A stretch of 60,740 nt of DNA, taken from positions 1 through 60,740 of IMG/VR virus record IMGVR_UViG_3300046004_001107, one strand, 5' to 3'. A program made the translations under genes and the position numbers. This document shows, piece by piece, positions 16,177-58,375 of this stretch (positions are counted from its first letter, which is position 1; each line of letters begins with the position of its first letter). Origin of the DNA: a virus. The notes under the pieces are model-generated. The model made no database searches and was not told the DNA's origin. It saw only the letters and a list, made by a program, of their open reading frames with translations.

Positions 16177-16617
16177 ATGTTTAAAAAGATGATTTCATTG
16201 GCGATGGCTCTAGCCAGCCGTGGTTTAACAAATAATAAAATTGATTTAATCACTAAAAAAATTAGAACAGTTTCTTGTTTTGGTCATGGAGATATTTCTC
16301 CTTGTCATAATTTAAGAAAAAGTAACAATTCTGAATATTTCTATTGTGGTGGATGTGGTTGTGGTGATAATACTAATACTTGGTTAATAAAAGCTGATGG
16401 TGAATATGCTAAATTAGATTATCCCAGTTTAAATTGTCCACTTCAATTGCCTGGGTTTACCAATTATGATCCAAATTCCAATCTTTCTCCAGAAAGAAAA
16501 GAACAAATTGAAAATTTTGACCCTGAATTATTGAATTTAATACAAGTAACTGTTGGTAGATCTGAAGAAAAAGAAAATATAATAGCTGAAGTAAATAAAA
16601 TTATAGAGAATTCATAA
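16177..16617 (+). CDS. Small zinc-ribbon-like protein in the baseplate operon
   Basis: The 146-residue protein starts with a basic helix (MFKKMISLAMALASR) and contains SCFGHGDISPCHNL, then YFYCGGCGCGD, a four-cysteine-plus-histidine pattern like a small zinc ribbon. The C-terminal third is acidic and helical. It lies 2 bases after the wedge gene and ends before the gp13 promoter, so it belongs to the structural operon. Whether it is a virion part or an assembly factor cannot be told. Confidence 0.6.
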   Translation: MFKKMISLAMALASRGLTNNKIDLITKKIRTVSCFGHGDISPCHNLRKSNNSEYFYCGGCGCGDNTNTWLIKADGEYAKLDYPSLNCPLQLPGFTNYDPNSNLSPERKEQIENFDPELLNLIQVTVGRSEEKENIIAEVNKIIENS

Positions 16618-17461: not shown

Positions 17462-18121
17462 ATGGCAACCAATCCTTATTTTTATAATTACGGGAATGAA
17501 CAAAATCTTGTTGAAGATATTACTATTGAAATTATAAAAGCAACCGGACAAGATTGTTTATATATTCCAAGAAAATATTTTAATATAGATAAATTATTTG
17601 GTGAAAATCCTGCATCGTCATTTAGTAAAACTTATACATTGGAAATGTATCTACAATCTTATAAAGGCTTTGAAGGTACTGATATAATTTCTCAATTTGG
17701 TATTGAAATCAAAGATAAAGTTACTTTAGTATTTGCAAGAAAAAGATTTAAAGATGAAATAACGATTAATGATACGTCAATTACAAGACCACGTGAAGGT
17801 GATCTTATATATTTTCCTCTATCAAAATCTTTATTTGAAATTAATTTTGTAGAACATGAAAATCCATTTTATCCATTGGGAAAATTATATTCATATTATA
17901 TAACAGCTGAACTCTTTACATACAGTTATGAAAAGATTGATACTGGTGTTGATGTATTGGATGAAGTTTCTTCTGGTACAAAGCAAATAGATTATGAAAA
18001 TTCTTTACTTGTTTTAAATGGAAGTGGAGATTTTGCTGTAGAAGATGTTATTGAATTATACTATTCATCAAATGATCAACAAACTTTGTTTCCACCAGTT
18101 TATAATATGTTGGAACAATAA
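17462..18121 (+). CDS. 14: Neck protein gp14
   Basis: The 219-residue protein follows gp13 after two bases and matches T4-type gp14 (256 residues). It has an N-terminal NPYFYNYGNEQNLVEDITIE, then GQDCLYIPRKYFNIDKLFGE, and a beta-rich middle containing GDLIYFPLSKSLFEINFVEH. Gp14 builds the neck ring with gp13 and gives the tail its docking surface. It is the last standard neck gene before the inserted 3-kb propeller-protease gene. Confidence 0.85.
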   Translation: MATNPYFYNYGNEQNLVEDITIEIIKATGQDCLYIPRKYFNIDKLFGENPASSFSKTYTLEMYLQSYKGFEGTDIISQFGIEIKDKVTLVFARKRFKDEITINDTSITRPREGDLIYFPLSKSLFEINFVEHENPFYPLGKLYSYYITAELFTYSYEKIDTGVDVLDEVSSGTKQIDYENSLLVLNGSGDFAVEDVIELYYSSNDQQTLFPPVYNMLEQ

Positions 18122-18138
18122 TATAATTAAGGAATATA

Positions 18139-21100
18139 ATGGGAGTAATATACAATTCATTTAAACAAGAGCCTTTTGAGCCAACTCACATAACTGCATG
18201 GGGAAAAATAGGTGGAATTACTAGCTGGGCAACAAGTGTCGCGCCGTCAGTGTCAGATATTGATATTAAATTATCACAGAGACAAAGGTTTTTTGAACCT
18301 TTATTTTCTATGTGGACCAATGGTCCTCGACCTATAACAAATCCTTCAAATCGTAGAACCAATATATCTATTTCTACTGCGTGTTTTAACAATTTAGCAG
18401 TTTTTAATGAAATTGGATATGGTATTGGTAATAAAATATATGGGAATTTGAGTTATTATGAAGTAGATCCTATTTTTCCTTTTCTACCAGAATATTATGA
18501 AATGACTTTAAATGGTAGTGAAATATTTGAAGAAGTTGCTCGTCCAACTATATTTTATCAACAAGATAATTTAAAATATATTAATGAAAATATAATGGCA
18601 TGTGGATCTAATCATGTTTTGGTTATGTATACTAATTTAAACGGTAGTACATTATATGCTTGGGGAAAAAATGGTAGCAAACAATGTAATATTCCAACAA
18701 CTTTAAATGTATCAAATGTTAAAATGGTTACTGCTGGGAATAGACATTCTGTTGCTTTAGAAAATAATGGAAATATAACTGTATGGGGATTAACGTCATC
18801 TGGGCAAAATAATATACCAGTTGGTATAACTGCAGATTATGTTACTAGTGGATTAAATCATATACTTGCTTTAAGTAAAGATGGTACCGTATATGCATGG
18901 GGTGATAACTTTTATGGACAAGCTACTGTACCTTTTGGTTTGACAGGATGTATTGCAATAGGTGCTGGACATAAACACTCTATGGCAATAAGAGAAAATG
19001 GTTCTGTTGTTTGTTGGGGTATGAATGATAATGGTCAATGTAATGTTCCCGTTAGTGTTGGTACAGGTGGATTGCAGATTGCAGGGGGATTAGAACATAC
19101 TGCACTACTAAAAAAAGATGGAACAGTAATATGTTGGGGGAATAATACTTATAGACAAGCAAGTATACCCGGATTTCCTGATTCATTAGCATTATCAAAT
19201 TTTGTTATGGACGAAACTTTAAGAATGTCATATCCAACAGTAGGTGTTCCGGGTTCGACAAAAAAAGTTTTTTGTACAAAATATGGAACTATTGCTTTAT
19301 GTACTGCTAGAAAAACTATAAACGAAATATATTCATCTATATATGAATCTTTTCAAACAAGATCACTAATACCAAATCCTAACTTAGGAGAGCCAAAATA
19401 TGTACCCGGTCCAATGATAGGAAATCAAACAGCAAATATGACTCTATGGGGTATAACTAATTCACAGGCTTTACATGGTCTATCATTTTGGGGTAGGCAT
19501 ATGGGATATAATCCAATTAGACATGATTACTACGAATATCCAAGTGAAATAGTAAATCCCACGGATTCCGTTTTACCAACAGGTATAAACACAGCTTGGT
19601 GGAAAACCAGTGGTGATAAAAAATTAGATAAATGTTGGATTGCTGGGTATCAAAGTACACCTTATACTGTTATTGATGGTATTAGTTATTATATAAAAGC
19701 ATATGACAGTTTTTCTCCTCCAGATTTAAGTGGATGTTCTATCAGAGCAAGATCTTTTGGTAAACCATGGATCAATCCTGTTCCGGATTTAATTAATATT
19801 CAAGTAAATACTCCATTTCCCGCTAGTGCCCAAGGGTTCGAACCAACAGCAGGAAATGTAGGAAGTGATAGATTTGGTACTGCAAGATATCATAGTTTTA
19901 TAAATGGTGTACCAAATAATTGGAATCTTTGGAATTCTGGTTTTTGGACAAATATTTTAATTACCAAAAAACATGCATTGGCAGTTAAACATTTTGCGGG
20001 ACCAAATAATATATTATATAACGTACAGTGGATAAGAAGAGATGGAGTAATAGTTACAAGAACCCTAACTAGAATTCACACATTTGAAGATTGGAGATAT
20101 CCCACCCCAGGTGCTTCAAACGGATCATTAATAGATCCTGTAGATTTGTATTTATATGAATTGGATTCAGAATTAACACAAGATGATTTAAATAATATGA
20201 GTGTTTATAATGTCTGGCCCACAGTGTCTGGGTTTACTGGTGCTAAATTAATTGATACACAAGCATATATCCGTAAAGGTTTTACAGGAGAACGTGATAA
20301 TATTAATTATAATGATGCTAAGTTTATGTCACAAGTTGGTAGAAAAGTATATGCATTAGATGGTCAAGATAGAGTATATTGTAAAAGAATTTCAAAAGTT
20401 ATGGATTTAACAAATCCAACTCAATTCCGATCTTCGTTACCACTTTCCTATGCTAGAAGTGAAATTTTTATATCACATAAATTTTCTTTAATTGAGCCAT
20501 TTCCCCATAATATGGAACCAGATAATATTGCATGTAGTCTACATGTGGGTGATAGTGGAACACCATATTTTATAACTGGATCAGCTGCTAACTTAAATAC
20601 TACAACCGGGGCACAGGCAGAATATTTTGTAGGACAAGGAATTACTGTTGGCAGAACTATGTTTCTAGGAACTTTAGAAATGAATCATATTTTTACAACA
20701 GACTTTACAGATAAATTAAATAATCTATTGTTAACAAGAGGATTGAATATAGAAGAATGTATTAGCCGTGCAGAAATTGATATAGATGGTCCGGGTTTCT
20801 TATGGGCTGTACCAGTTGCTGGTGGAATAACATCTGATGTTGGATTAATTCCAGATTATAGTGGTGCAAATAATTATCTTTCATCTTCGTTATTTTCTTC
20901 TGAACTAAGCCCTTTACAAACTACAAGTTTTTATGGTTCAGCAACAGTTACAAACTGGGATAGTACTAAAAAATTACTAACAGTAAAAGGTGTTACTGGT
21001 AGTGTCGTAACTCCCGGAGGATCTACCGGGTATTCTTTAATAAATACAAATGAAGATAGAAGTAAGACATTATATACTAATTCACATCCATATGTTATTG

Positions 21101-21195
21101 CTTTGAATAATAATTTAGGAACTACTGCCGGAATAAATGATGTTATAGATGATGAAGCAATATTATTTAATATTGATAAAAATGAACCATGCTAA
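18139..21195 (+). CDS. RCC1-type propeller plus trypsin-like protease-domain virion protein
   Basis: The 1018-residue protein lies between gp14 and gp15. Residues about 145-350 hold at least four RCC1/BLIP-II-type repeats with alternating VTAGNRHSVAL, VYAWGDNFYGQ, IGAGHKHSMAI and VVCWGMNDNGQ motifs, forming a beta-propeller. Residues about 600-850 look like a chymotrypsin-fold domain. ILITKKHALAVKHF gives His618 in the place of the family's TAAHC His, DLYLYEL gives Asp669, and VGDSGTPYF gives Ser806 in the GDSGxP motif. A beta-rich tail follows. An AAGGAA ribosome binding site lies 7 bases upstream. Protease activity is inferred from the triad pattern. The position suggests a neck or collar appendage. 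Confidence 0.7.
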   Translation: MGVIYNSFKQEPFEPTHITAWGKIGGITSWATSVAPSVSDIDIKLSQRQRFFEPLFSMWTNGPRPITNPSNRRTNISISTACFNNLAVFNEIGYGIGNKIYGNLSYYEVDPIFPFLPEYYEMTLNGSEIFEEVARPTIFYQQDNLKYINENIMACGSNHVLVMYTNLNGSTLYAWGKNGSKQCNIPTTLNVSNVKMVTAGNRHSVALENNGNITVWGLTSSGQNNIPVGITADYVTSGLNHILALSKDGTVYAWGDNFYGQATVPFGLTGCIAIGAGHKHSMAIRENGSVVCWGMNDNGQCNVPVSVGTGGLQIAGGLEHTALLKKDGTVICWGNNTYRQASIPGFPDSLALSNFVMDETLRMSYPTVGVPGSTKKVFCTKYGTIALCTARKTINEIYSSIYESFQTRSLIPNPNLGEPKYVPGPMIGNQTANMTLWGITNSQALHGLSFWGRHMGYNPIRHDYYEYPSEIVNPTDSVLPTGINTAWWKTSGDKKLDKCWIAGYQSTPYTVIDGISYYIKAYDSFSPPDLSGCSIRARSFGKPWINPVPDLINIQVNTPFPASAQGFEPTAGNVGSDRFGTARYHSFINGVPNNWNLWNSGFWTNILITKKHALAVKHFAGPNNILYNVQWIRRDGVIVTRTLTRIHTFEDWRYPTPGASNGSLIDPVDLYLYELDSELTQDDLNNMSVYNVWPTVSGFTGAKLIDTQAYIRKGFTGERDNINYNDAKFMSQVGRKVYALDGQDRVYCKRISKVMDLTNPTQFRSSLPLSYARSEIFISHKFSLIEPFPHNMEPDNIACSLHVGDSGTPYFITGSAANLNTTTGAQAEYFVGQGITVGRTMFLGTLEMNHIFTTDFTDKLNNLLLTRGLNIEECISRAEIDIDGPGFLWAVPVAGGITSDVGLIPDYSGANNYLSSSLFSSELSPLQTTSFYGSATVTNWDSTKKLLTVKGVTGSVVTPGGSTGYSLINTNEDRSKTLYTNSHPYVIALNNNLGTTAGINDVIDDEAILFNIDKNEPC

Positions 21196-21206
21196 TAGGA
21201 AATTAA

Positions 21207-21890
21207 ATGTTTAATTACTTCTATAATCAAAATTTAAGAAAATTAGTAGTTGGATTTGGATCATTGTTTAGCAATATCAATGTTCAACATGACAATCCTG
21301 AAGATACTGTTTCTCCATTAATAATTCGTGTTCCAATTACATATGCTCCACAAGAAAAATTTATTAGACGCTTGTTAGAAACATCTTCTATTAATGATGG
21401 TACCCGCATTGAAAATCAATTACCTAGATTAAGTTATATGATGTCATCAGTTACACCTGATCCATCTAGAAGAAGAAATAAATCAAATACCAGTAAAACA
21501 ATGGTAGGTTCGCCTGGGAATTGTACTGGGTCTAGTGCAAATTTTATTACAGAAGAAGTTCCAGTTAATGTTTCTTTTTCATTATTTGTCTATACGAGAC
21601 ATTTAGATGATACGTTACAAATTGTAGAACAAATTATTCCATATTTCAATCCAGATCATATTATAACAATTGACATGAATAGTGCACAAAGTGATGTTAG
21701 AATTCCTATAACTATGCTAAGTAATAATATAAGTGAACGATATGATGGTGATTTTGGAAACCGTAGAGTAAATATTTCAAGTTTTAGTTTTGTTGCCAAA
21801 TCATATATCTTTGGTAAGATTGAAACACAGAATGTAATTTCATCTGTAGGTCCTCCAGGAATATCATTTGATTTAAATTGGAATTATTAA
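21207..21890 (+). CDS. 15: Tail sheath stabiliser / tail completion protein gp15
   Basis: The 227-residue protein matches T4-type gp15. It starts with MFNYFYNQNLRKLVVGFGSL and continues with the conserved RVPITYAPQEKFIRRLLE, then LPRLSYMM and a beta C-terminal half. In T4, gp15 caps the tail and stabilises the contracted or extended sheath end, contacting gp3 and gp18. T4 gp15 has 272 residues. TAGGAAA lies upstream as ribosome binding site. It returns to T4 order after the inserted propeller gene. Confidence 0.85.
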   Translation: MFNYFYNQNLRKLVVGFGSLFSNINVQHDNPEDTVSPLIIRVPITYAPQEKFIRRLLETSSINDGTRIENQLPRLSYMMSSVTPDPSRRRNKSNTSKTMVGSPGNCTGSSANFITEEVPVNVSFSLFVYTRHLDDTLQIVEQIIPYFNPDHIITIDMNSAQSDVRIPITMLSNNISERYDGDFGNRRVNISSFSFVAKSYIFGKIETQNVISSVGPPGISFDLNWNY

Positions 21891-35872: not shown

Positions 35873-36505
35873 ATGATTATTGATTTACGAGAAATACCAG
35901 TCGTATGGATTAATTTAGATTCAGCAACTAAAAATGCTGAGATTATGCAAAACAGATTAGAAAAATATGGGTTTAAAAATACTCATAGAAAATCTGGTTT
36001 AATTATTCCGCCCCCAGAAGGAACACCAAGAGAAATATACCATTTTATGGGATGTGGACAATCTCATATTGATATACTTGAATCTCTACAATATACTACA
36101 CCGGTTCTAATTTTAGAAGATGATGTTGAGTTTGCTGAAGATTTTAATCCTATTATTGATATTCCGGAAGATAGTGATGGAATATATCTTGGTGTATCTA
36201 TTGGAAACAGATATTATGCTTCTAAAAGATATGATGAAAATTATTTAAGAATTGGTGGAATTCTTGCTGCACATGCAATTTTATATGTTACTGATACATA
36301 TCGACAAAATATGGCTGATGTAGGTAATCATTGTCTTCATAGATTACACCAACCATGGGATATGGGTACTGCACAAATTCAATTTTCTCATAAAGTTTAT
36401 GCAACAAATAAACCCCTATTTTATCAATCAAATGATAGAGAAAACGCCAATAAGTGGCAGGGATTGACTGATTGCAGTTTAGAAGATAGAAATTTTAATT
36501 TTTAA
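35873..36505 (+). CDS. Glycosyltransferase, family 25-like
   Basis: The 210-residue protein has the GT25 layout: an opening strand IPVVWINLDSATKNAEIMQN, then CGQSHIDILESL, then the metal-binding PVLILEDDVEFAEDF motif around residues 82-96. GT25 enzymes transfer galactose or glucose in LPS or protein glycan synthesis; the donor and acceptor here are unknown. It is the first gene of the island, with its own promoter and CGAGG ribosome binding site, and it abuts the next gene (TAATG). Confidence 0.75.
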   Translation: MIIDLREIPVVWINLDSATKNAEIMQNRLEKYGFKNTHRKSGLIIPPPEGTPREIYHFMGCGQSHIDILESLQYTTPVLILEDDVEFAEDFNPIIDIPEDSDGIYLGVSIGNRYYASKRYDENYLRIGGILAAHAILYVTDTYRQNMADVGNHCLHRLHQPWDMGTAQIQFSHKVYATNKPLFYQSNDRENANKWQGLTDCSLEDRNFNF

Positions 36506-37293
36506 TGATTACTTTTAATAGACTTGGTAATTATGGGCGTATGGGAAATCAGATGTTTCAGTATGCAACGTTATTTGCGATTGCTAAAACTAGAGGATAC
36601 GAATATGGTATTCCATATAAATCTAAATCAAATAATCCATATTTAAATTTTTGTTTAGATGATGCTTTTTTAAATTTAACTGCAAAAGATAGTTCAGAAA
36701 TTAAAAATATTAATAGAGCCCAAGAACATAATTTTACATATAATGCTGGTATATTTGGTATATCTGACAATACTGATATTGTTGGATATTTTCAAAGTGA
36801 AAAATATTTTATTGATTATAGACAAGATTTATTAAAAGAATTTGAATTTACTCCACATATTAAAACTCAAGCAGAGATAATACGGCAAATTGGTAAAAAA
36901 TTAGCAGTTGCCCTGCATATACGGTTAGGAGATTATATAAATTTAACAGATAAACATCCTATATGTACTATGCAATATTATGAAGAAGCATTAAACAATA
37001 TTCCAGAAAATGCTTTTCTTTATATTATTAGTGATGATAATGAAAAGGCTGCAGAACTTTTTAAAGATTTAAAAAGACCTTTTTGTATTCCAGATACAAA
37101 AAATCAAAATATTGATATGTGTTTAATGACTATGTGTGATTATCATATAATTGCAAATAGTTCTTTTAGTTGGTGGGGAGCATGGCTCAGTGAAAGTAAA
37201 AAAGTGATTGCACCAAGTCAGTGGTTTGGTGCTGCACAAGGAATGCCAAAAAATTGGTCTGATATTTATTGCAAAAATTGGATCATTATATGA
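36505..37293 (+). CDS. Alpha-1,2-fucosyltransferase, family 11
   Basis: The 262-residue protein carries the GT11 signatures: GRMGNQMFQYA (residues 11-21), HIRLGDY (138-144), the GDP-fucose site with the conserved HxRxGDY, and SSFSWWGAWL (219-228). GT11 enzymes move L-fucose from GDP-fucose to a galactose 2-OH in LPS or host-like glycans. GDP-mannose 4,6-dehydratase in the same island could supply the donor. Full length for the family. Its stop overlaps the next start. Confidence 0.9.
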   Translation: MITFNRLGNYGRMGNQMFQYATLFAIAKTRGYEYGIPYKSKSNNPYLNFCLDDAFLNLTAKDSSEIKNINRAQEHNFTYNAGIFGISDNTDIVGYFQSEKYFIDYRQDLLKEFEFTPHIKTQAEIIRQIGKKLAVALHIRLGDYINLTDKHPICTMQYYEEALNNIPENAFLYIISDDNEKAAELFKDLKRPFCIPDTKNQNIDMCLMTMCDYHIIANSSFSWWGAWLSESKKVIAPSQWFGAAQGMPKNWSDIYCKNWIII

Positions 37294-38120
37294 ATAAATT
37301 ACATATTTTTACTGAAGCTTTTACTGGTGGGTCGTGTTTAAATAATCCACCAAAAACTTTTGAATGGATTTTTAATTCTTATCCCAATGATAATTCACCA
37401 GTTGTTTATTTTGATAATTCTATTTTTAGATATATGAATGATGCCTATAGTGGACCAAAATATGGCTGGTTAGGTGAATCATCAGAAATAATTCCACAAC
37501 TATTGATGGGAATTACAACTAATAAAGATGTTTTAAAATCAAAATATAAAAATATTTTTACCAATGATCATAGAATAATAAGTATTGATCCAGATTTTTT
37601 TAAATATAATCCACCTGCATCAAATATGCCATGGATTAAAAATCCTCATATATTTGAAAAAACACAATTATGTTCGTATATAACAAGTTTTAAAAATTTT
37701 ACATCTGGTCATATTAAAAGAATGGAATTATTTGAACAATTAAAAAATAATCCACAAATAAAAGATCACATTTATGGAAGAGATTATAAGTTTATTCCTG
37801 ATAAATTAGATGGATTAAAAAATTATATGTTTTCTATTGTTGTAGAAAATAGTATATATCCAAAGTATTATACTGAAAAAATAACAGATTGTTTTGCTAC
37901 TGGTACCATCCCTATATACTATGGTGATAAATCCATAGGTGAGGATTTTGATTTAAATGGAATTATTTTTATTGAAGAACTTGAGTCTTTTGATTTATTG
38001 AATTCATATCTTTATAATTCAATGACTGAAGCTGTAAAAATTAATTTTGATCGTGTCTGTCAATTAAACAGCGCAGATGATATGATTTATAGGAGTATTT
38101 GTGATTCGATTAAGTATTAA
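37290..38120 (+). CDS. Fucosyltransferase, family 10-like (first copy)
   Basis: The 276-residue product from the ATG at 37290 (ATGA overlap; an upstream TTG is less likely) has the GT10 donor motif near residues 182-212: FSIVVENS, YYTEKITDCFATGTIPIYYG. GT10 enzymes add fucose alpha-1,3 or alpha-1,4 to N-acetylglucosamine or glucose. The N-terminal acceptor domain is divergent. It overlaps a second GT10 gene at its 3' end by 20 bases. Confidence 0.85.
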   Translation: MNKLHIFTEAFTGGSCLNNPPKTFEWIFNSYPNDNSPVVYFDNSIFRYMNDAYSGPKYGWLGESSEIIPQLLMGITTNKDVLKSKYKNIFTNDHRIISIDPDFFKYNPPASNMPWIKNPHIFEKTQLCSYITSFKNFTSGHIKRMELFEQLKNNPQIKDHIYGRDYKFIPDKLDGLKNYMFSIVVENSIYPKYYTEKITDCFATGTIPIYYGDKSIGEDFDLNGIIFIEELESFDLLNSYLYNSMTEAVKINFDRVCQLNSADDMIYRSICDSIKY

Positions 38121-38967
38121 CAATTTTTGGCCTGATTTTAATTATGAAGAAAATCTTTTATTATGTTTATTAAAAGACATATATGGTGATGATTTAGTAT
38201 TAACAAATAATATACATGATTGTAATTTATGTTTAGTTGCAGAAAATTATGTTCCAAAAGAGATAGATCGATCTAAAACTAAAATATTAACATGCATGCC
38301 AGAACCAAAAGAGGTTCAATATAAAGATGGTGATTATCATTTATCTTTTGACCCATTCAGATACGATTTAAAAAATGTTAGATTTCCTATTTGGTATTTT
38401 TATATTAATTTTTATAATTTACAAAATCAAAAAAACCCGATACCAGTTCTAACCCCAAGTGAACTTGATAACAATAAATGGTTACACGCACCAAAAGATG
38501 AATTTTGTATAGCTCCTTTTTCTGCTATTCACAATAATAGAGTTAAATTTCTTCAACTACTTAATACACACAAACCAACAGCTGGATTTGGTTTACCATT
38601 TGGTAATGGTGACGCACAAAGAAACGAACAAACAAAATATGATGCTATATGTAAATATAGATTTTCTATGGCGTTTGAAAATACACATAAAATAGGATAT
38701 GTTACTGAAAAGTTTTTACATGCAAAAACAGCAGGATGTATTCCAATTTATTGGGGTGATGAATATGTTCTTCATGATTTTAATCCAGATTGTTTTATTT
38801 ACGCAAATCATTTTAAATCATTTGAAGAATGTTTAGAATATGTAAAATATATTGATTCAAACGAAGATTTATATCTTAAAATGAAAAATGCACCACTATT
38901 CAATTATGATGTTATTGAATCTTTGAATAATATTAAAAAACAATTAAAGGATGTTATATCATTATAA
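38101..38967 (+). CDS. Fucosyltransferase, family 10-like (second copy)
   Basis: The 288-residue protein carries the GT10 donor motif at residues 187-220: FSMAFENTHKIGYVTEKFLH, then AKTAGCIPIYWGD. The N-terminal half is only distantly like the preceding GT10, so the acceptor may differ. The start is GTG at 38101 with AGGAG about 6 bases upstream. Transfer of fucose or a related 6-deoxysugar is inferred from the family. Confidence 0.85.
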   Translation: MIRLSINNFWPDFNYEENLLLCLLKDIYGDDLVLTNNIHDCNLCLVAENYVPKEIDRSKTKILTCMPEPKEVQYKDGDYHLSFDPFRYDLKNVRFPIWYFYINFYNLQNQKNPIPVLTPSELDNNKWLHAPKDEFCIAPFSAIHNNRVKFLQLLNTHKPTAGFGLPFGNGDAQRNEQTKYDAICKYRFSMAFENTHKIGYVTEKFLHAKTAGCIPIYWGDEYVLHDFNPDCFIYANHFKSFEECLEYVKYIDSNEDLYLKMKNAPLFNYDVIESLNNIKKQLKDVISL

Positions 38968-39725
38968 AAACTAAAATAATTTCGTTACCAGGTGCCACAG
39001 AACGGCAAGAAAAAATTAAAACAAATTTTAAAAATATAGATTATGATTTGGTAATGGGGGTATCTCCAAATGATATAGTATTTTATCAAGCGAATCTTCC
39101 ATATTATGTATTTGATAATTTATCCTTTTTTATCAATAAAACTAATATGATGAAGTATACAAATCGAACATGGGTTAGATTTGGAGAAATAGCCGCACTT
39201 ATGGCTCATTACAGACTATGGAAAGAGATAGCCAAAGAAGTTGATGAAATGGTATATTTAATATGTGAAGATGATTGTTTACCATCTGATACATTTAAAA
39301 TGAAAAATTTAAAAACTTTTGATTATACTAAAATTGATTTTTTATATCTACAGGCAATCACAGCACATTATCAAACTAAAACTGATGTTTTAAATAAATT
39401 AGATTATACTAACTGGGATCAAAATTTAAAACATATTAATAAATTTAAAAATTATATGTGTGAAGGTTTAGCAGCATATTGTATTACAAAAACTGGAGCT
39501 CAAAAGTTGTGTGCATATATTGAAAAAAATGGTTATGATGGTCCGGTAGATAATATAATAGTACGCTTAGAAAATTTTGAATGTGTCTGTCCAACAAAAT
39601 TAGAAGATTATTTTAATTTAGATGATACATCAAAATATTCTTATACACATACTGGTACATTTAACAAAATATATGATCTAAATGGTATAGAACTTCAATC
39701 AAATAAAGAATTGCAACTAATTTAA
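38961..39725 (+). CDS. Glycosyltransferase, family 25-like, non-ATG start
   Basis: The frame encodes KIISLPGATERQEKIKTNF then IDYDLVMGV, the standard GT25 N-terminus, followed by YLICEDDCLP and, near the end, a Gly-Pro-Val-Asp stretch typical of GT25. No ATG, GTG or TTG lies before this conserved part. The frame opens after a TAA at 38934, and AAAGGA sits 9 bases before an ATT at 38961, my chosen start (254 residues). An ATC at 38958 is possible; a TTG at 39048 would remove the conserved N-terminus. The gene overlaps the GT10 gene by 7 bases. Confidence 0.65.
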   Translation: MIKTKIISLPGATERQEKIKTNFKNIDYDLVMGVSPNDIVFYQANLPYYVFDNLSFFINKTNMMKYTNRTWVRFGEIAALMAHYRLWKEIAKEVDEMVYLICEDDCLPSDTFKMKNLKTFDYTKIDFLYLQAITAHYQTKTDVLNKLDYTNWDQNLKHINKFKNYMCEGLAAYCITKTGAQKLCAYIEKNGYDGPVDNIIVRLENFECVCPTKLEDYFNLDDTSKYSYTHTGTFNKIYDLNGIELQSNKELQLI

Positions 39726-39753
39726 TTGCATATTACATAATACACGATATAAT
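39726..39753 (+). promoter_or_regulatory. Sigma70-type promoter for the RfbH-like gene
   Basis: TTGCAT (39726-39731) and TATAAT (39748-39753) are 16 bases apart. The start codon is 12 bases after the -10 box, leaving a leader of about 6 bases and no Shine-Dalgarno. Confidence 0.6.
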
Positions 39754-39765
39754 ATTGAGACTTAT

Positions 39766-41073
39766 ATGAATGATATATTAAAAGCTGTAGAAAATTATAT
39801 TAATCACAAACCAAAGAAGATATGGATTCCAGGTCACGATTGGGTTCAGTATGCTGGACCTTATTTTGATTCAGAAGAATATGTTGAAGCCATATCAGCT
39901 TTATTGCAAGGGTGGTTAGTTTTAGGGCAAAATGGTATTAAATTTGAAAATACATTTCCAGATCTTTTTAATAAAAAATTTGGTATTTTAACAAATAGTG
40001 GAAGTAGTTCCAATTTGTTAATGTTATCAGCATTAACATCAAAAAGATTATATAATCTTCCCAAAGGAACAAAAGTAATCACACCGATTGCTGGATTTCC
40101 CACAACTATTAATCCTATATTTCAAGTTGGATTTGAACCAGTTTTTGTTGATATTGATTTAGATACATTAAATTTAAATTTAGATCAAGTAGAACAAAAA
40201 GCAAAAGAAGGATGTAAAGTACTTATTTTTGCACACGTATTAGGAAATCCACCTAATATGGATAGACTAATGGATATAGTTAATAAGTACAATTTAATTC
40301 TTTTAGAAGATTGTTGTGATGCTTTAGGTTCATCATATAGAGGAAACCCATTAGGTTCATTTGGTATTATGTCTAGTTGCTCGTTCTATCCTGCTCACCA
40401 TATGACAATGGGTGAAGGTGGCTTTATTGCATGTAATACACAAGAACAAGAAACTGTAATTAGAAGTTTTCGTGAATGGGGAAGAGGTTGCTTTTGCGTT
40501 GGTCAAAAAGCAAATACACTAAAGAATGGATGTTGTGGAAAAAGATTTTCAAATTGGTTGCCATCACTACCAGATGAGATCTTTGATCATAAGTATGTTT
40601 ATGATGAAATTGGTTATAATCTAAAACCAATCGAATTGCAAGCAGCCATTGGACTTGCTCAAATGAAAAAGCTTCCTAAGATACATGAACTTAGAAAAGC
40701 TAATCATAAAAGATTATATAATATATTTTCAAAATATGAAGAATATTTTATTTTACCAGAAGCAACTGAACATTCTGATCCTAGTTGGTTTGCATTTGCT
40801 ATAACTATAAAGGATAATAATAGATTTAAGAGAAAAGATATTATCAATTATTTTGAGGATCATAAAATACAAACAAGACCATACTTTGCAGGAAATATTA
40901 TGTTACAACCTGCATATGAGAATATTATGGATACTCAAGATGTTATAAATAATTACCCCAATGCTCGAAAGGTTACTACAGATACATTCTTCTTAGGAAC
41001 TAGTCCAGTTATAACAATAGAGCAATTGAATTACATTGAAGTGACGTTAAATAATTTTTTTAAACTAATATAA
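39766..41073 (+). CDS. rfbH: RfbH/E1-type sugar 3-dehydrase (PMP and [2Fe-2S])
   Basis: The 435-residue protein belongs to the DegT/DnrJ/StrS aminotransferase fold but has SFYPAHHMTMGEGG, with His211 where aminotransferases have the PLP lysine. This is the hallmark of CDP-4-keto-6-deoxyglucose 3-dehydrase (E1, RfbH). Cysteines at 184, 242, 244 and 256/257 fit the E1 [2Fe-2S] pattern: C184-X57-C242-X-C244 is exact and the last gap is longer than the usual seven. E1 removes the C3 hydroxyl with a reductase partner (E3), which is not seen here. The nucleotide carrier is unknown. Confidence 0.85.
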   Translation: MNDILKAVENYINHKPKKIWIPGHDWVQYAGPYFDSEEYVEAISALLQGWLVLGQNGIKFENTFPDLFNKKFGILTNSGSSSNLLMLSALTSKRLYNLPKGTKVITPIAGFPTTINPIFQVGFEPVFVDIDLDTLNLNLDQVEQKAKEGCKVLIFAHVLGNPPNMDRLMDIVNKYNLILLEDCCDALGSSYRGNPLGSFGIMSSCSFYPAHHMTMGEGGFIACNTQEQETVIRSFREWGRGCFCVGQKANTLKNGCCGKRFSNWLPSLPDEIFDHKYVYDEIGYNLKPIELQAAIGLAQMKKLPKIHELRKANHKRLYNIFSKYEEYFILPEATEHSDPSWFAFAITIKDNNRFKRKDIINYFEDHKIQTRPYFAGNIMLQPAYENIMDTQDVINNYPNARKVTTDTFFLGTSPVITIEQLNYIEVTLNNFFKLI

Positions 41074-41081
41074 GGATAAAA

Positions 41082-41711
41082 ATGACTACAAGAACTGAAC
41101 AATTAAAAAATACTGTTTTTAAAGCTTTGAATAATGAAACCCCAGCAAATATTACTGATAAAATCTTAGAAATTAAAGGTTTTTCTGGAAAGGATTATAA
41201 AAGATTTGCCAATCGCCTTTTATCGGATCAATTAATTAAAAATTACTTAGAGATTGGTGTATGGCATGGGTCAACTGCTATAGCCGCTTTACACGGAAAT
41301 ACAGATAAATTAAATTATTCACTTGTAGATAATTTTTCTCAATTTGGCTCACCAAAGCAAGAGTTTTTAAATAATTGGAAAGATAATATTGGAACTGATC
41401 CAAATTTAATTGATGAGGATTGTTTTCAAATAAATCTCCAACAAAAAAATATTAAAGATATAGATGCATATTTTTATGATGGAGATCATGAAGAACTAGA
41501 TCATTATTTGGCACTGCAATATTATTATTTAAGTATGTCAAAATCATTTATCTATATGGTAGATGATTGGTGTTGGCCAAAAGTTCAGATGGGTACAATA
41601 CGTGCAATTAAAGAACTTAATTTAAAAATATCTTTACAAGTAAGCTTTTATGGTGAAGAAGACGCAGAAGGTTGGTGGAATGGATGTAGTATTTTTGTAT
41701 TTGAAAAATAA
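41082..41711 (+). CDS. Class I methyltransferase-like protein
   Basis: The 209-residue protein has a Rossmann-type SAM site (NYLEIGVWHGSTAIAALHG, motif I) and DAYFYDGDHEELDHY, the Asp-Gly-Asp-His pattern of Methyltransf_24-type proteins in sugar gene clusters, followed by VDDWCWPKVQMGT. It may methylate a sugar or act on a nucleotide-sugar product; the target is unknown. AAGGATAAAA precedes the ATG. It lies between RfbH and more glycosyltransferases. Confidence 0.65.
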   Translation: MTTRTEQLKNTVFKALNNETPANITDKILEIKGFSGKDYKRFANRLLSDQLIKNYLEIGVWHGSTAIAALHGNTDKLNYSLVDNFSQFGSPKQEFLNNWKDNIGTDPNLIDEDCFQINLQQKNIKDIDAYFYDGDHEELDHYLALQYYYLSMSKSFIYMVDDWCWPKVQMGTIRAIKELNLKISLQVSFYGEEDAEGWWNGCSIFVFEK

Positions 41712-41713
41712 TT

Positions 41714-42406
41714 ATGAAACGAACATTAATAATAACAGGGTATACTGATTCAGTAAGATCTATAGATTCTACTGATAACACAATGGAAGAAGTATTTGAT
41801 ATAACTCTTCCATCTAAAATAAAGTATGCTAAAAAACATGGATATGATTTTTTAGCAATGCAATCTTTTGGTAGTGATAAATCTGGAAACTATAAAGATA
41901 CTGATATTGGGTTTTTAAGAGCATTAAGAACATTTGAAATGTTAGAATCTTATGATACTGTTATGTGGATTGATGCTGATTCTTTAATTACAAATTTAAA
42001 TTATAAAATTGAAGATTTTTTAGTTCCTTCAGAATATGCATTTTATGCATCTTATGATTGGTTAGGTACTAATAGTTTAAGTGGTGGAAATTTTATTATA
42101 CAAAATAATGAATCAACAAAAGACTTTTTAAAAAGTTTTTATGAATTATCTAAACATTACAACGAAGAACAAACTACATTAAATGTTATGTATTTTAATA
42201 TGATAAATAAAAATTATATTAAAATATTAGAACATAAATTTTTAGGTTCTGTTCCATCTATTGATGATTATACAACAGAAATATGGGGCAAAAGACCATC
42301 TCCTCCATATCCATGGACACCAGAATCTTTTTTAGTTCATTTAACGGGTATAGCTAATAAAGAAAGAATACATATGTTATCTACGATATATAAAGATTAT
42401 CTATGA
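41714..42406 (+). CDS. Glycosyltransferase, family 34-like (DxD)
   Basis: The 230-residue protein has a GT-A layout with the DxD metal motif in TVMWIDADSLITN near residues 83-95 and GGNFIIQNNESTKDFLKSFY later, the pattern of the GMA12/MNN10 and related families, and FLVHLTG near the C-terminus. Such enzymes use nucleotide sugars such as UDP-galactose or GDP-mannose. Donor and acceptor are unknown. It overlaps the next gene by 4 bases. Confidence 0.65.
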   Translation: MKRTLIITGYTDSVRSIDSTDNTMEEVFDITLPSKIKYAKKHGYDFLAMQSFGSDKSGNYKDTDIGFLRALRTFEMLESYDTVMWIDADSLITNLNYKIEDFLVPSEYAFYASYDWLGTNSLSGGNFIIQNNESTKDFLKSFYELSKHYNEEQTTLNVMYFNMINKNYIKILEHKFLGSVPSIDDYTTEIWGKRPSPPYPWTPESFLVHLTGIANKERIHMLSTIYKDYL

Positions 42407-43080
42407 ATAAATTGAATCTTAAAAATATTACTCTCTATTCTTTAAATTGTGTTAACCCAGTTAATAGTATAAAAGCTTTATTGTATAGTTCCAAAGATAT
42501 TGATTTTGCTGAATTGGTTTTAATAAGTAATAAAAAACCAGAAAATCTTCCAAGTAATATAAAATTTGTTTATACAAGTTATACAACACATAAAGAAAGT
42601 TCATTATTTACTTATACCACTTTACCAGATTTAATTGAAACTGATTATTGTCTTGGAATTCATGATGATGGGTTTGTAATAAATCCAACTCTATGGGATT
42701 CAAATTTTTTAAACTATGATTATATTGGAGCTCCATGGAAGTGGGAAGGTAGAAGGAACAGAGTTGGAAATGGTGGATTTGTATTGAAAAGTAAAAAATT
42801 TATAAAACTTACCAAAAATTTAAAATCTTTGGGATATTGTGATGATGGTGAACTTACAAATATGTATTATGATTATTTTATTCAAAATGGATGTAAGTAT
42901 GCTCCGGTAGAGGTTGCTATGAAATTTGCTTTAGAATCAAAAATACCAGAATGTGAATTTAATTTAAATAATTGTTTTGGTTTTCATGGTCGGGGTAACC
43001 CAGATAGTGTAACAGTCCATGATGGTTTTTATCACCAATTTCAAGATAAAATAAAACTTTTAGAGACTATTGTTATATGA
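42403..43080 (+). CDS. DUF5672-type putative glycosyltransferase
   Basis: The 225-residue protein has the features of the DUF5672 family: TDYCLGIHDDGFVINP, YDYIGAPWKWEG, then RVGNGGFVLKSKKFIKL, and FGFHG near the end. Members occur in glycan clusters and are believed to be glycosyltransferases; HDDG would take the place of the DxD motif. Substrates are unknown. It is coupled by ATGA overlaps to the genes on both sides. Confidence 0.75.
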   Translation: MNKLNLKNITLYSLNCVNPVNSIKALLYSSKDIDFAELVLISNKKPENLPSNIKFVYTSYTTHKESSLFTYTTLPDLIETDYCLGIHDDGFVINPTLWDSNFLNYDYIGAPWKWEGRRNRVGNGGFVLKSKKFIKLTKNLKSLGYCDDGELTNMYYDYFIQNGCKYAPVEVAMKFALESKIPECEFNLNNCFGFHGRGNPDSVTVHDGFYHQFQDKIKLLETIVI

Positions 43081-43886
43081 TAAATGAAAAGTATTTAATT
43101 TTAAAACCAGAACACTATTGTGGTATGTGTGGATGTATATGGCAAGTTATTCGCGCCATATATCACAATCCAAATAAATTATATTATATTGATTTTAAGG
43201 ATAGTATCTATAATACGACTATTGATGGTAACGTATGGGATCTATTTTTTTACCAACCTCATATAGATCATTTTCCAGATCAAAGTAAGACTGAAGGTTT
43301 TGTTGGTCATATACCAGATCAATCTAGTAATTTTATCTGGATTGAAACTATTCCATATACATTAGAAGAAATACAAAATAGAAGAATTATTTTTAATAGT
43401 ATTATAAATAAGTATATTAAATTAAAACCAGAGATTTTAAATAAAGTAAATAATTTTGTAGAACAAGAATTTAAAAATAAAAATATTCTTGGTATCCATT
43501 TAAGAGGCACAGATCATCCATATAAAAAAAATATGGATGGGTATTTTGAAGTAATTGATAATTATGTAAATGATTATGATAAAATTTTTATATCTTCAGA
43601 TTCACAAGAAAGATTTGAAAAAGCAAAACAGCATTATGGTGATAAAGTAATAGCTTATGATGCACTGAGAAGTAATAATGACAGTACTCCATTACACATG
43701 CCAAAGTACGAAACTAGATGGAAAAGAAATGCTTCATCTGAGTACCAATATAAAATATGTGAAGACGTTATAGTTGAAGCATACTTGTTATCAAATGTAA
43801 ATTTTTTAATTTGTTGTCCGGGATCAAATGTTAGTTATTTTTCTAGAGCATTAAATCCAAATTTAAATGCAATAGAAATTTTTTAA
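43077..43886 (+). CDS. NodZ/GT23-like putative fucosyltransferase
   Basis: The 269-residue protein has KNILGIHLRGTDHPYKK near residues 135-151, the His-x-Arg-Gly-Thr-Asp variant of the GDP-fucose binding loop, and LICCPGSNVSYFSRAL at the C-terminus, like NodZ and related O- and N-fucosyltransferases. This would be a fourth fucosyltransferase-type enzyme in the island. The N-terminal part contains several Cys (HYCGMCGCIW). Substrates cannot be told. Confidence 0.65.
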   Translation: MINEKYLILKPEHYCGMCGCIWQVIRAIYHNPNKLYYIDFKDSIYNTTIDGNVWDLFFYQPHIDHFPDQSKTEGFVGHIPDQSSNFIWIETIPYTLEEIQNRRIIFNSIINKYIKLKPEILNKVNNFVEQEFKNKNILGIHLRGTDHPYKKNMDGYFEVIDNYVNDYDKIFISSDSQERFEKAKQHYGDKVIAYDALRSNNDSTPLHMPKYETRWKRNASSEYQYKICEDVIVEAYLLSNVNFLICCPGSNVSYFSRALNPNLNAIEIF

Positions 43887-43903
43887 AAAGGTGATATGTA
43901 TAA

Positions 43904-44860
43904 ATGAATATTAAAGTAGTATATGTAACAGGCTGTTTGGGTTTTATTGGATCGTATATAACCCGTGAATGTCTTAAAAAAGGATGGTATGTAAAAGGTG
44001 TAGATAAGATCACCTATGCAGCAAATGATCAACTTTTGCAAGAGTTTGAAGCCCATAAAAATTTTTCATTTGTTCATTGTGACATTAATGATTTGACATT
44101 TTTATATGATTGTGATTATGTAATTAATACTGCAGCAGAGACGCATGTTGGAAACTCTATTGTTAATAGTGATGATTTTATATCATCAAATATAAATGGT
44201 GTACACAATCTTTTAGAAATGATCAAAAACCACAGACAAGAAAATGGCAAGGTTCCAACTTTAGTACACTTTAGTACTGATGAAGTATACGGTGATATTG
44301 CTCAAGGAGCCCACACAGAAACAGATATTTTAAAGCCATCAAATCCATATTCTGCATCAAAAGCTGCCGCAGATATGTTAATAATGGCATGGTCAAGAAC
44401 GTATAACCTACCATATATAATTTTGCGTCCAACGAATAATTATGGTATTGGTCAATATGTAGAAAAATTAATACCAAAAACTTGTAAATATATTACTTTA
44501 GGAAGAAAAATTCCTCTTCATAATGGTGGAACGCCCGTTCGAAACTGGCTACATGCAAAAGATACTGCCAGAGCAGTTATTACTATAATTGAATCTAATG
44601 CAAAAAATGAAATTTTTAATATCTGTGGTGGTTATGAACAAACTAATATGGATACAATAAAAAAACTTTTAGCCTCATTGGGTATTCACGAAAATGATAT
44701 AGATAGTCACATAGATTATTCATATAGCCGTCCTGGTCAAGATGTTCGTTATGCGTTAGATGATTCTAAATTAACATCACTTGGATGGAAACCGGAAGAA
44801 AACTTTAATATGGAAATTCAAAGTATTGCAGAGTACTATAAAAACAATTTTATTTGGTAA
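43904..44860 (+). CDS. Nucleotide-sugar 4,6-dehydratase (RmlB-like)
   Basis: The 318-residue SDR has the Gly-rich NAD motif TGCLGFIGS (residues 9-17), VDKITYAAN, AAETHVGNSI, FSTDEVYGD (123-131, carrying the Thr-Asp-Glu catalytic set) and YSASKAAAD (Tyr149, Lys153). These match dTDP-glucose 4,6-dehydratase, which makes a 4-keto-6-deoxy sugar. It could feed the RfbH-like dehydrase, although E1 enzymes classically use CDP-sugars. AAAAGGTG precedes the ATG. It directly precedes the split transketolase. Confidence 0.85.
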   Translation: MNIKVVYVTGCLGFIGSYITRECLKKGWYVKGVDKITYAANDQLLQEFEAHKNFSFVHCDINDLTFLYDCDYVINTAAETHVGNSIVNSDDFISSNINGVHNLLEMIKNHRQENGKVPTLVHFSTDEVYGDIAQGAHTETDILKPSNPYSASKAAADMLIMAWSRTYNLPYIILRPTNNYGIGQYVEKLIPKTCKYITLGRKIPLHNGGTPVRNWLHAKDTARAVITIIESNAKNEIFNICGGYEQTNMDTIKKLLASLGIHENDIDSHIDYSYSRPGQDVRYALDDSKLTSLGWKPEENFNMEIQSIAEYYKNNFIW

Positions 44861-44868
44861 ATAATATA

Positions 44869-45492
44869 GTGATTAATCTAAAAAAAATAATACTTGATAT
44901 AGCGTATAAAAATAAATTGAGCCATTTAGGTAGTTATTTTTCTTCTATTGATATTATAGATTTAATCTATAGTAAAATGGCTAAGGATGATATATTTATT
45001 TTATCATCAGGTCATGCAGCATTAGCTTTATATGCTTGTCTTGAAAAATATCATAATATTAATGCTGAATCTATGTTTTTAAAACATGGAGGTCATCCCC
45101 ATAGGGATGAAGAAAATAAAATTTATTGTTCAACAGGAAGTTTGGGATTAGGTATTACCATCGCACTTGGAAGAGCAGTAGCAAATCCCAATAAAAAAGT
45201 TTATGTTCTTATTAGTGATGGTGAGTGTGCAGAGGGAAGTGTGTGGGAATCTTTAAAAACAATATACGAACATAAAATTAATAATATTGAAATTCATGTA
45301 AATGTAAATGGCTATGCAGCATATATGGAAGTTGACCAAGAGTATTTGATAACAAGATTAAAATCATTTCTTCCATCAGTTGTAATACACAAAACATCTG
45401 TAGAGCAATTTTCTTTTTTAAAGGGTTTGAATGCACATTATCATGTAATGAGCGAAGAGAATTATAATAAAGGACTTTTGGAACTACAATGA
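44869..45492 (+). CDS. Transketolase N-terminal (TPP-binding) subunit
   Basis: The 207-residue product from the GTG at 44869 (TTG at 44854 is an alternative) covers the pyrophosphate-binding domain of transketolase: LSHLGSYFSSIDIIDLIY, LSSGHAALALYACL, HGGHPHRDE, CSTGSLGLGITIALGRA, and SDGECAEGSVWESL, the ThDP/metal motif. It lacks the other two domains, as in split transketolase-like enzymes of bacterial sugar clusters, and the next gene supplies the second. It probably transfers a two-carbon ketol or acyl unit; acceptor unknown. Confidence 0.85.
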   Translation: MINLKKIILDIAYKNKLSHLGSYFSSIDIIDLIYSKMAKDDIFILSSGHAALALYACLEKYHNINAESMFLKHGGHPHRDEENKIYCSTGSLGLGITIALGRAVANPNKKVYVLISDGECAEGSVWESLKTIYEHKINNIEIHVNVNGYAAYMEVDQEYLITRLKSFLPSVVIHKTSVEQFSFLKGLNAHYHVMSEENYNKGLLELQ

Positions 45493-45965
45493 GAAAGAAT
45501 TTTGCAGAACGTTTACATAATGAAATGAAAGTGAATCAAAATATATATTTGATTACGGGTGATTTGGGATATGGTTTATGGGATAATATAAGAGATTCCT
45601 TTCAAGGAAGATTTTTTAATGTAGGCTCGTCAGAAATGGCTATGATGGGAATGGCAATTGGTTTAGCTATGGAAGGAAAAATTCCATTTGTTTATTCTAT
45701 AACTCCCTTTGCAATTTATCGTCCATTTGAGATGATTAGAAATTATTTGGATCATGAAAATATTCCCGTGAATATAATTGGTGGTGGGCGAGATAGAGAC
45801 TATGGATATCTTGGATTTTCACATTGGGCTGATGATGACAAAAAAATAATGGAATCATTTAAAAATATTAGAATTATGCATCCAACAAATATAGATGAAC
45901 TACAAATAAATTTTAATCAATTAATAAATGATCGTAAACCAACATATTTAAATCTTAAAAAATGA
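45489..45965 (+). CDS. Transketolase C-terminal (pyrimidine-binding) subunit
   Basis: The 158-residue protein is the pyrimidine-binding domain that partners the preceding gene. NIYLITGDLGYGLWDNI, then RFFNVGSSEMAMMGMAIGLA with Glu49 as the ThDP-activating glutamate, and VYSITPFAIYRPFEMIRNYL match the family. The third, C-terminal transketolase domain is absent. The ATGA overlaps with both neighbours indicate equimolar coupled synthesis. With RfbH and RmlB-like genes nearby, a role in a branched sugar is plausible. Confidence 0.85.
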   Translation: MRKNFAERLHNEMKVNQNIYLITGDLGYGLWDNIRDSFQGRFFNVGSSEMAMMGMAIGLAMEGKIPFVYSITPFAIYRPFEMIRNYLDHENIPVNIIGGGRDRDYGYLGFSHWADDDKKIMESFKNIRIMHPTNIDELQINFNQLINDRKPTYLNLKK

Positions 45966-46744
45966 ATATATTGATTACAGGTGCAAATGGCTATGTTGGT
46001 AAAAGTATTTATTGTGCATTAAAAAATGTATATAATATAACTTGTATTACTAGAAATGATTTTGATTTAACAAATTTAAATTGTTGTTCTGATTGGTTTT
46101 ATAACAAATCATTTGATGTTGTAATACACACAGCTGCAGTAGGTGGAAGTAGACTTATAAAAGATGATGAAAGTGTTTTGACAAAAAATATTAAAATATA
46201 TAATAATATTATATCTTGCAGAAAACATTTTAATAAAATGATATATTTTGGTTCTGGTGCAGAAATATTTCAACCAAATACTTTTTATGGAACTAGTAAA
46301 AAAGTTATATCAGAATTAATAAATGAAACGGAGTCTGTTTATAATTTAAGAATATTTGGCGTTTTTGATGAAAATGAATTAAATACTCGATTTATAAAAG
46401 CAAATATTCTTCGATATATTAATAAAGAACCAATGTTAATACAGTCAAACAAACTTATGGACTTTTTCTATATGAAAGATTTAATATCTTTAGTTCAATA
46501 TTATATTAAAAATGATACTTTGGATAAAACTATTAATTGTTCTTATGAAACAAAAAGTACATTGGTAAATATAGCAAATTTTATTAATACTTTATCTGAT
46601 TATAAAGTTTCTGTTAATATTGAACAAAAACATACTTTAGATTTTTATTGTGGTAATAGCTACTTACCTATAACTCCAATAGGATTAGAGCAAGGAATTT
46701 TAAATACATATAAAATACTTAAAAATAATAGTTGTATTATTTAA
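45962..46744 (+). CDS. NAD-dependent SDR, GDP-fucose-synthase-like
   Basis: The 260-residue SDR has TGANGYVG (residues 6-13), HTAAVGGSRLIKDDESV (56-72), FGSGAEIF with Ser98, and YGTSKK (Tyr109, Lys113). The Ala-Ala-Val-Gly-Gly stretch is reminiscent of GDP-L-fucose synthase. It could complete GDP-fucose synthesis with the GMD gene 0.6 kb away, or reduce the product of the split transketolase to which it is directly coupled. Sequence alone does not decide. Confidence 0.65.
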   Translation: MNILITGANGYVGKSIYCALKNVYNITCITRNDFDLTNLNCCSDWFYNKSFDVVIHTAAVGGSRLIKDDESVLTKNIKIYNNIISCRKHFNKMIYFGSGAEIFQPNTFYGTSKKVISELINETESVYNLRIFGVFDENELNTRFIKANILRYINKEPMLIQSNKLMDFFYMKDLISLVQYYIKNDTLDKTINCSYETKSTLVNIANFINTLSDYKVSVNIEQKHTLDFYCGNSYLPITPIGLEQGILNTYKILKNNSCII

Positions 46745-46760
46745 TATATGGTGGTATAAT
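46732..46760 (+). promoter_or_regulatory. Sigma70-type extended -10 promoter for gp55
   Basis: TTGTAT (46732-46737) and TATAAT (46755-46760) are 17 bases apart, with a TGG extension before the -10 box. The gp55 GTG begins 5 bases after it. Confidence 0.65.
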
Positions 46761-46765
46761 AAGCT

Positions 46766-47338
46766 GTGCAACAACCTAAAAAGAAAAGAAAAAACAAAGC
46801 AGCTTCAGATGCTGATTACGTGAGTAATCAGGATCTTTTAGATGCATTAATTGGATACAAACAAAAAAAGGAAGATGCAGAAAATATTGGTCGTAAAAAG
46901 CCAAAGATTCCAGATTTTATAGGGGAATGTATTTTAAAAATTGCTTCTAGGCTTTCATATCGCCCCAATTTTGCAAACTATCCATATAGAGAAGAAATGG
47001 TATCTGATGCAGTTTTAAACTGTGTTACCTATATTGATAACTTTGATCCAGAAAAGTCCAGCAGCCCTTTTGGTTATTTAACCCAAATCTGCTGGTTTTC
47101 TTTTGTTCGTATTATAAACAAAGAAAAACGAGAAAAGTATACCCAATACAAGTATGCCGAACAGCAGAATGATAAAGACTTTCATCATTGGTTCAATGAA
47201 ACCTATGCTGGTATTGATATAGGTCGTAGAGACTTTTTTGGTCTTACTGATCTTGATATGACTAGATTCGATGAAATGCTAACTCCCAAGAAAGCTAAAA
47301 GAACTCGCAAATCTAAAAAACCAACACTCGATATATGA
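46766..47338 (+). CDS. 55: Late-promoter sigma factor gp55
   Basis: The 190-residue protein matches T4 gp55 (185 residues). After a basic N-terminus come [20 protein letters not shown], the core [20 protein letters not shown] (sigma region 2-like) and [22 protein letters not shown]-type helices. Gp55 directs RNA polymerase to TATAAATA promoters together with gp33 and gp45, both also in this window. The start is GTG at 46766; the next possible in-frame start would cut into the conserved part. The -10 box is 5 bases upstream, so a leaderless mRNA is likely. Its end overlaps gmd by 4 bases. Confidence 0.88.

Positions 47339-55385: not shown

Positions 55386-58375
<2,990 letters not shown>

Follow-up and report, generated by a model that had tools for sequence, protein, structure and literature searches.

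A predicted propeller-protease protein that carries the displaced gp14 tail at the neck genes of a T4-like phage

The window, by which we mean the whole 60,740-nucleotide stretch of viral DNA analyzed here, encodes between the neck genes gp14 and gp15 a protein of 1018 residues that combines an RCC1/BLIP-II-like propeller, a predicted chymotrypsin-fold protease domain and, at its very end, a tail that gp14 itself lacks. These features, which some uncultured T4-like phages share, suggest that the phage has built an appendage with an enzyme into its neck. The protein is probably a neck-mounted propeller-protease appendage of a T4-like phage, which would complete gp14 in trans and cut an external protein. 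We give an even chance to the more specific proposal that gp14 is split inside a domain, that the appendage supplies the missing half and that the head-tail joint contains the protease as an integral component in stoichiometric amount. To our knowledge, the neck of T4 is known for fibres and not for enzymes; if the proposal is true, every infecting particle would bring along a protease at a position where enzymes are not known to occur.

The open reading frame of the propeller-protease (18139..21195, plus strand, as are gp14, gp15 and all segments of the protein described below) starts with an ATG that is preceded by a Shine-Dalgarno-like AAGGAA. Upstream lies gp14 (219 aa, 17462..18121; PF11649, E 3e-40) and downstream gp15 (21207..21890; PF16724, E 3e-52), the tail sheath stabiliser/terminator, which in T4 is the partner of the gp14 C-terminal region (PMC12270204). 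The surrounding gene order, with gp13 before gp14 and with gp16, gp17, sheath and gp23 after gp15, is that of T4-like phages. Stops in the upstream frame, relative frames that differ between loci and the protein's own ribosome-binding site speak against translational fusion of gp14 to the propeller-protease via read-through or frameshift, and we reject this reading. A 146-aa ORF (16177-16617) immediately before gp13 gives a zinc-ribbon match that is weak and below threshold; the ORF is conserved at 51-60% identity in L088, L091 and others. The gp15 of Pelagibacter phage Mosig (L082:8001-9599) has 532 aa and a long C-terminal extension that is missing from the window gp15. Elsewhere in the window, an 863-aa protein (55784-58375) contains collagen-like triple-helix repeats, and a cluster of sugar genes (36505-48396: GDP-mannose 4,6-dehydratase, epimerases, fucosyltransferase-like genes of GT10, GT11 and FUT8-like type, DegT aminotransferase) suggests phage-directed glycosylation of surface or virion.

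The relation of the new protein to gp14 becomes clear upon comparison with phages that do not encode it. In these relatives, gp14 ends with a conserved C-terminal tail of ~33 residues (...IIPLNNILGTTAGINDxIDDEAxLFNVDKNEPC; in L005, for example, IIPLNNILGTTAGINDIIDDEADLFNVDKNEPC). Neither the window gp14 nor any complete gp14 from a cassette locus has this tail, which is found instead at the C-terminus of the propeller-protease. Residues 986-1018 of the window protein (21094..21192, ...NNNLGTTAGINDVIDDEAILFNIDKNEPC) align with the last 33 residues of the relatives' gp14, though they are only weakly similar to the end of T4 gp14; the gp14 tail here lies next to gp15 on a second polypeptide. The close relative L007 matches the window at 88-91% nucleotide identity as far as position 17944, in gp14 codon ~161, and the match resumes at 21097, in codon 987 of the propeller-protease. 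The exchangeable cassette between these borders (17945..21096), which occupies the place of 60 bp of the L007 gp14, begins inside gp14 and ends inside the propeller-protease, and so did not simply enter the space between two genes. The original prediction of a protein inserted between gp14 and gp15 is thus right in position, given the PF11649 and PF16724 flanks, but incomplete, as the left border of the cassette falls in gp14 itself and the gp14 tail terminates the ORF. The location in the virion neck that it proposed gains support, because the tail makes a stronger case for this assignment than gene order does.

The split falls within a small predicted beta domain. Its first half forms the end of the window gp14 (residues ~176-203, 17987..18070, IDYENSLLVLNGSGDFAVEDVIELYYSS) and matches the unsplit gp14s of L117 and L028, while its second half is found at residues ~931-985 of the propeller-protease (20929..21093, GSATVTNWDSTKKLLTVKGVTGS...) and matches the gp14s of L028 (E 4e-24), L117 (4e-12) and L153 (3e-8). 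The unsplit gp14s (L028, L117, L153, L157, L162), from loci with no cassette, are longer, at 287-297 aa, and contain the whole domain between core and tail, with the motif ..YxxxGSGxFxxGNxVxL..GxATVxSWDxxNxxLxVxGVSGxF... The split phages have the first part of the domain at the end of gp14 and the second in the propeller-protease, ahead of the tail. In BLAST comparisons of six split lineages, the two parts hit complementary stretches of unsplit gp14 (L028, L117, L153) in all six, with E values against the best unsplit partner from 3.5e-5 (window) to 5e-15 for the first halves and from 3e-22 to 1e-32 for the second halves with tail. For the window, the first-half match is weak (E 3.5e-5 to L117, 0.002 to L028); for L027 against L028, sisters on the gp15 tree, it reaches 5e-15. 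By their domain parts, the nearest further split/unsplit pairs are L071/L117 and L088/L153, and the three pairs of relatives render the route directly testable. Most simply, the two polypeptides would together make up one predicted domain, in trans. Enlarged forms of gp14 also occur as single polypeptides. In the gp14 of cyanophage S-SM2 (L084:4515-5957), a long insertion precedes an L028-like beta-domain motif and an NPFG tail. The gp14 of L063 (7479-9986, a single 836-aa ORF) keeps its own tail, followed by an unrelated extension of ~620 residues, which represents a different route to enlarging the same neck protein. The C-terminal part of gp14 looks like a general site for module addition.

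Homologues of the propeller-protease were collected from IMG/VR scans, and the alignment of 15 rows consists of IMG/VR contigs throughout. The homologues (L002, L004, L027, L030, L071, L072, L073/L074, L078, L079, L087, L088/L089, L090) are 31-77% identical to the window protein; a 4.6-kb contig (L001) is identical to the window across insert, gp15 and next ORF. A search for the same fusion beside gp14 and gp15 in related phages, which the original prediction had proposed as a check, found it between these genes in every homologue with both flanks present. The protein occurs once in each of the two longest contigs that encode it (126 and 137 kb). Of 83 loci that are distinct in gp15 and have both flanks, the cassette is present in 11 and a short-tailed gp14 in 63. 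Presence of the cassette requires seven changes on the gp15 tree, a quick tree with some long branches, and at least six of these are forced by well-supported branches, which leaves a single origin followed by vertical descent unsupported. Moreover, the flanks of L030 are 90-94% identical to L017 at the nucleotide level, while its insert shares 82-85% identity with the inserts of L071, L079 and L087, indicating transfer of the cassette between phages by recombination. Outside this set, residues 381-1018 gave no credible match in 50,697 phage records, nor did a tblastn search of the same records with the C-terminal parts of three homologues, and the genome contig collection contained no cellular homologues. 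The literature searched for a phage propeller-protease combination returned nothing relevant, and no virion-borne chymotrypsin-fold proteases were found in the phage collection or in the literature searched.

The N-terminal region of the protein (residues 1-140, 18139..18558), which is without known domain, is followed by the propeller at residues ~141-350 (18559..19188). Pfam assigns RCC1_2 (E 4e-37) and RCC1 (2e-5) to this region, and a phmmer search of the PDB matches it to BLIP-II (E 2e-36). In the full-length AlphaFold model, confidence is mainly in the propeller, with BLIP-II as best Foldseek match (TM 0.70 on target). RCC1_2 is matched by all 15 aligned rows. The RCC1-type repeats, anticipated at about residues 145-350, are hence confirmed, and they form a seven-bladed propeller. 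RCC1-like proteins of a jumbo coliphage have been reported without known function (PMC7247149).

The predicted protease domain covers residues ~575-870 (19861..20748). Its candidate catalytic residues, His618 (codon 19990..19992), Asp669 (20143..20145) and Ser806 within GDSGTP (20554..20556), are invariant in 15/15 aligned rows together with K611, D635 and the GDSG motif, even though the homologues are as little as 31% identical. The second His of the first motif, H612, is Phe in L088/L089, which rules it out as the catalytic residue and leaves H618 as the candidate. The order His618-Asp669-Ser806 with GDSG is chymotrypsin-like, as originally predicted; the residue numbering was correct, and loss of the triad from close homologues, named in advance as an argument against it, was not observed in any row. 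When all PDB sequences were searched with a profile of residues 590-880, the single match was an S1 serine protease (E 0.022), whose own His, Asp and Ser motifs all line up with those of the profile. The structural model of residues 515-885 is of low confidence (pTM 0.68, mean pLDDT 61), and the stretch preceding the Ser is poorly modelled. Its secondary-structure elements follow the chymotrypsin order, with a short helix at His618, one strand directly behind Asp669, another behind Ser806 and a helix at the C-terminus. The best 50 Foldseek matches of this model in the PDB belong without exception to the chymotrypsin-type serine proteases and homologues of these (probability up to 0.98, E 0.003-0.015, TM on target <=0.46); against viral models, only weak matches to RNA-virus polyproteins were obtained. 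A chymotrypsin fold for residues ~575-870 is therefore likely but unproven. The designation as trypsin-like should be confined to fold and triad and not extended to specificity. The residue six positions before Ser806, which we take to correspond to position 189 of trypsin, is Ser800 in the window rather than Asp and varies among D, N, T and A in the homologues; Arg/Lys specificity is thus not implied.

Two alternatives concern the nature of this domain. The triad might be coincidental and residues 575-870 might adopt another fold, as no family model was matched in Pfam and PHROG scans of the protease region, PF00089 had no match in the window, and a direct phmmer search of the PDB with residues 381-1018 returned one irrelevant hit (E 1). 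Likewise, profile-profile alignment (hhalign) to two trypsins paired the GDSG stretch alone, at a probability of 6%. We nevertheless consider coincidence very improbable, since all three residues are invariant, the S1 profile match holds them in register, the Foldseek result is unanimous and the secondary structure around each residue is chymotrypsin-like. Alternatively, the fold could serve as an adhesin that binds without catalysis, in the manner of a pseudoprotease. The low confidence of the model would leave room for such a module, and rapid evolution of the domain would suit an adhesin. Pseudoproteases, however, usually lack one of His, Asp or GDSG, and retention of all three in every row, in homologues down to 31% identity, makes a purely binding role quite unlikely.

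Substitution rates differ strongly along the protein. Comparison of the window with L002 gives 98-99% amino acid identity for gp15 and gp17 but 76% for the propeller-protease. In comparisons with L002 and L004, dN/dS is 0.11-0.17 for the propeller and 0.32-0.40 for the protease. It amounts to 0.36-0.64, calculated over residues 351-520, for the fast-evolving linker at residues 351-514 (19189..19680; 64-73% aa identity to L002/L004) and to 0.9-1.3 for the weakly constrained linker at residues 871-930 (20749..20928). In one pair, L078/L090, linker and protease taken together show pN > pS (p 0.03, uncorrected), and the propeller shows the opposite (p 3e-5). The propeller is the most constrained part and linker and protease are the most variable, which is the reverse of what would be expected for a variable receptor-binding propeller and lends no support to the proposed binding of a surface ligand by it. 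A scaffold under constraint combined with an enzyme part that diversifies fits a host-variable target, and on this thin ground we prefer a host-surface protein as candidate substrate.

These rates also bear on the possibility that the enzyme acts during assembly or maturation, cutting a virion protein or itself, for instance to free the propeller part from the gp14-derived tail. Fusion to a structural tail would place the enzyme next to virion substrates, and the weakly constrained linker between protease and tail could be cleaved. A conserved cleavage motif was not seen in this linker, though, and protease and linker evolve fast (dN/dS 0.3-0.6, and the one pair with pN > pS) while the presumed virion partners are conserved. 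In addition, the closest relatives, with flanks of 90-94% nucleotide identity, do without the protein, meaning that assembly has no general need for it. We regard a role in assembly as unlikely. The patchy presence of the cassette, with its at least six changes on the gp15 tree, could also be taken to indicate accidental cargo, that is, a moron gene that landed in gene 14 and whose product, with a vestigial terminal tail, stays outside the virion. Against this, every split lineage sampled has retained both the shortened gp14 and the transferred tail, no sampled locus has restored a full gp14 beside the propeller-protease, and tail and second half of the beta domain are conserved (91-97% aa identity, dN/dS 0.08-0.36). 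Accidental cargo is improbable in our judgement.

The preferred reading of a functional neck appendage can be set against the known structure of the T4 neck. A cryo-EM study reports that residues 178-256 of T4 gp14, a hexamer, lack order until the tail is joined and thereafter contact residues 203-245 of gp15 extensively; it also describes the whiskers as trimeric fibres attached to gp13 (PMC12270204). We propose that recombination in conserved gp14/gp15 sequence exchanged the cassette into the 3' part of gene 14, so that gp14 would now stop inside the small beta domain, with the second half and the C-terminal tail ending the new protein. Completion of the split gp14 domain in trans would anchor the propeller-protease at the head-tail joint. 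Given its homology to the gp14 C-terminus and the T4 gp14-gp15 contacts, its tail is expected to dock onto gp15, as the T4 gp14 C-terminal region does. As gp14 is hexameric in T4, up to six copies, one per gp14, might display propeller and protease at the joint. For the propeller, the most likely role would be that of a conserved scaffold or a platform for protein binding; the protease, connected by variable linkers, would most likely cut a protein outside the virion (host envelope or surface-layer) around adsorption. The locus thus offers a testable example of module addition to an essential joint, by exchange at conserved borders and with the essential tail carried on the new protein.

Comparison with known systems places the protein at some distance from each of them. 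T4 gp14 (PF11649; PDB 9mkb, 9lu4) shares the core, the position between gp13 and gp15 and the C-terminal region with the window gp14, whose C-terminal tail, in contrast, sits on a second polypeptide with propeller and protease. The S-SM2 gp14 (481 aa) is enlarged towards its C-terminus, where it has a motif resembling that of the beta domain and a similar tail, but is one polypeptide without propeller or protease. T4 fibritin/whiskers (gp wac) and collar are likewise appendages attached to the neck. The window protein differs from whiskers as a propeller-protease tied to gp14/gp15: the Pfam scan shows no fibritin family match, coiled-coil trimer or foldon domain, and the predicted secondary structure consists mostly of strands, without a long helix. 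BLIP-II and RCC1-like propellers (PDB 1jtd, 3qhy) are of the same seven-bladed RCC1 type (27-29% identity, TM 0.70), but BLIP-II is a stand-alone beta-lactamase inhibitor protein, whereas the propeller here is one domain within a phage protein. The RCC1-annotated proteins of the isolate phages Marinobacter PS6, Synechococcus S-SRM01 and phAPEC6 match it in the repeats only. With S1/PA-clan serine proteases, it shares the His-Asp-Ser order, the KHxLAxxH, DLYLYEL and GDSGTP motifs and the predicted fold; it differs from them in that no family model matches it, in a variable equivalent of residue 189 and in a longer Asp-Ser spacing of 137 residues.
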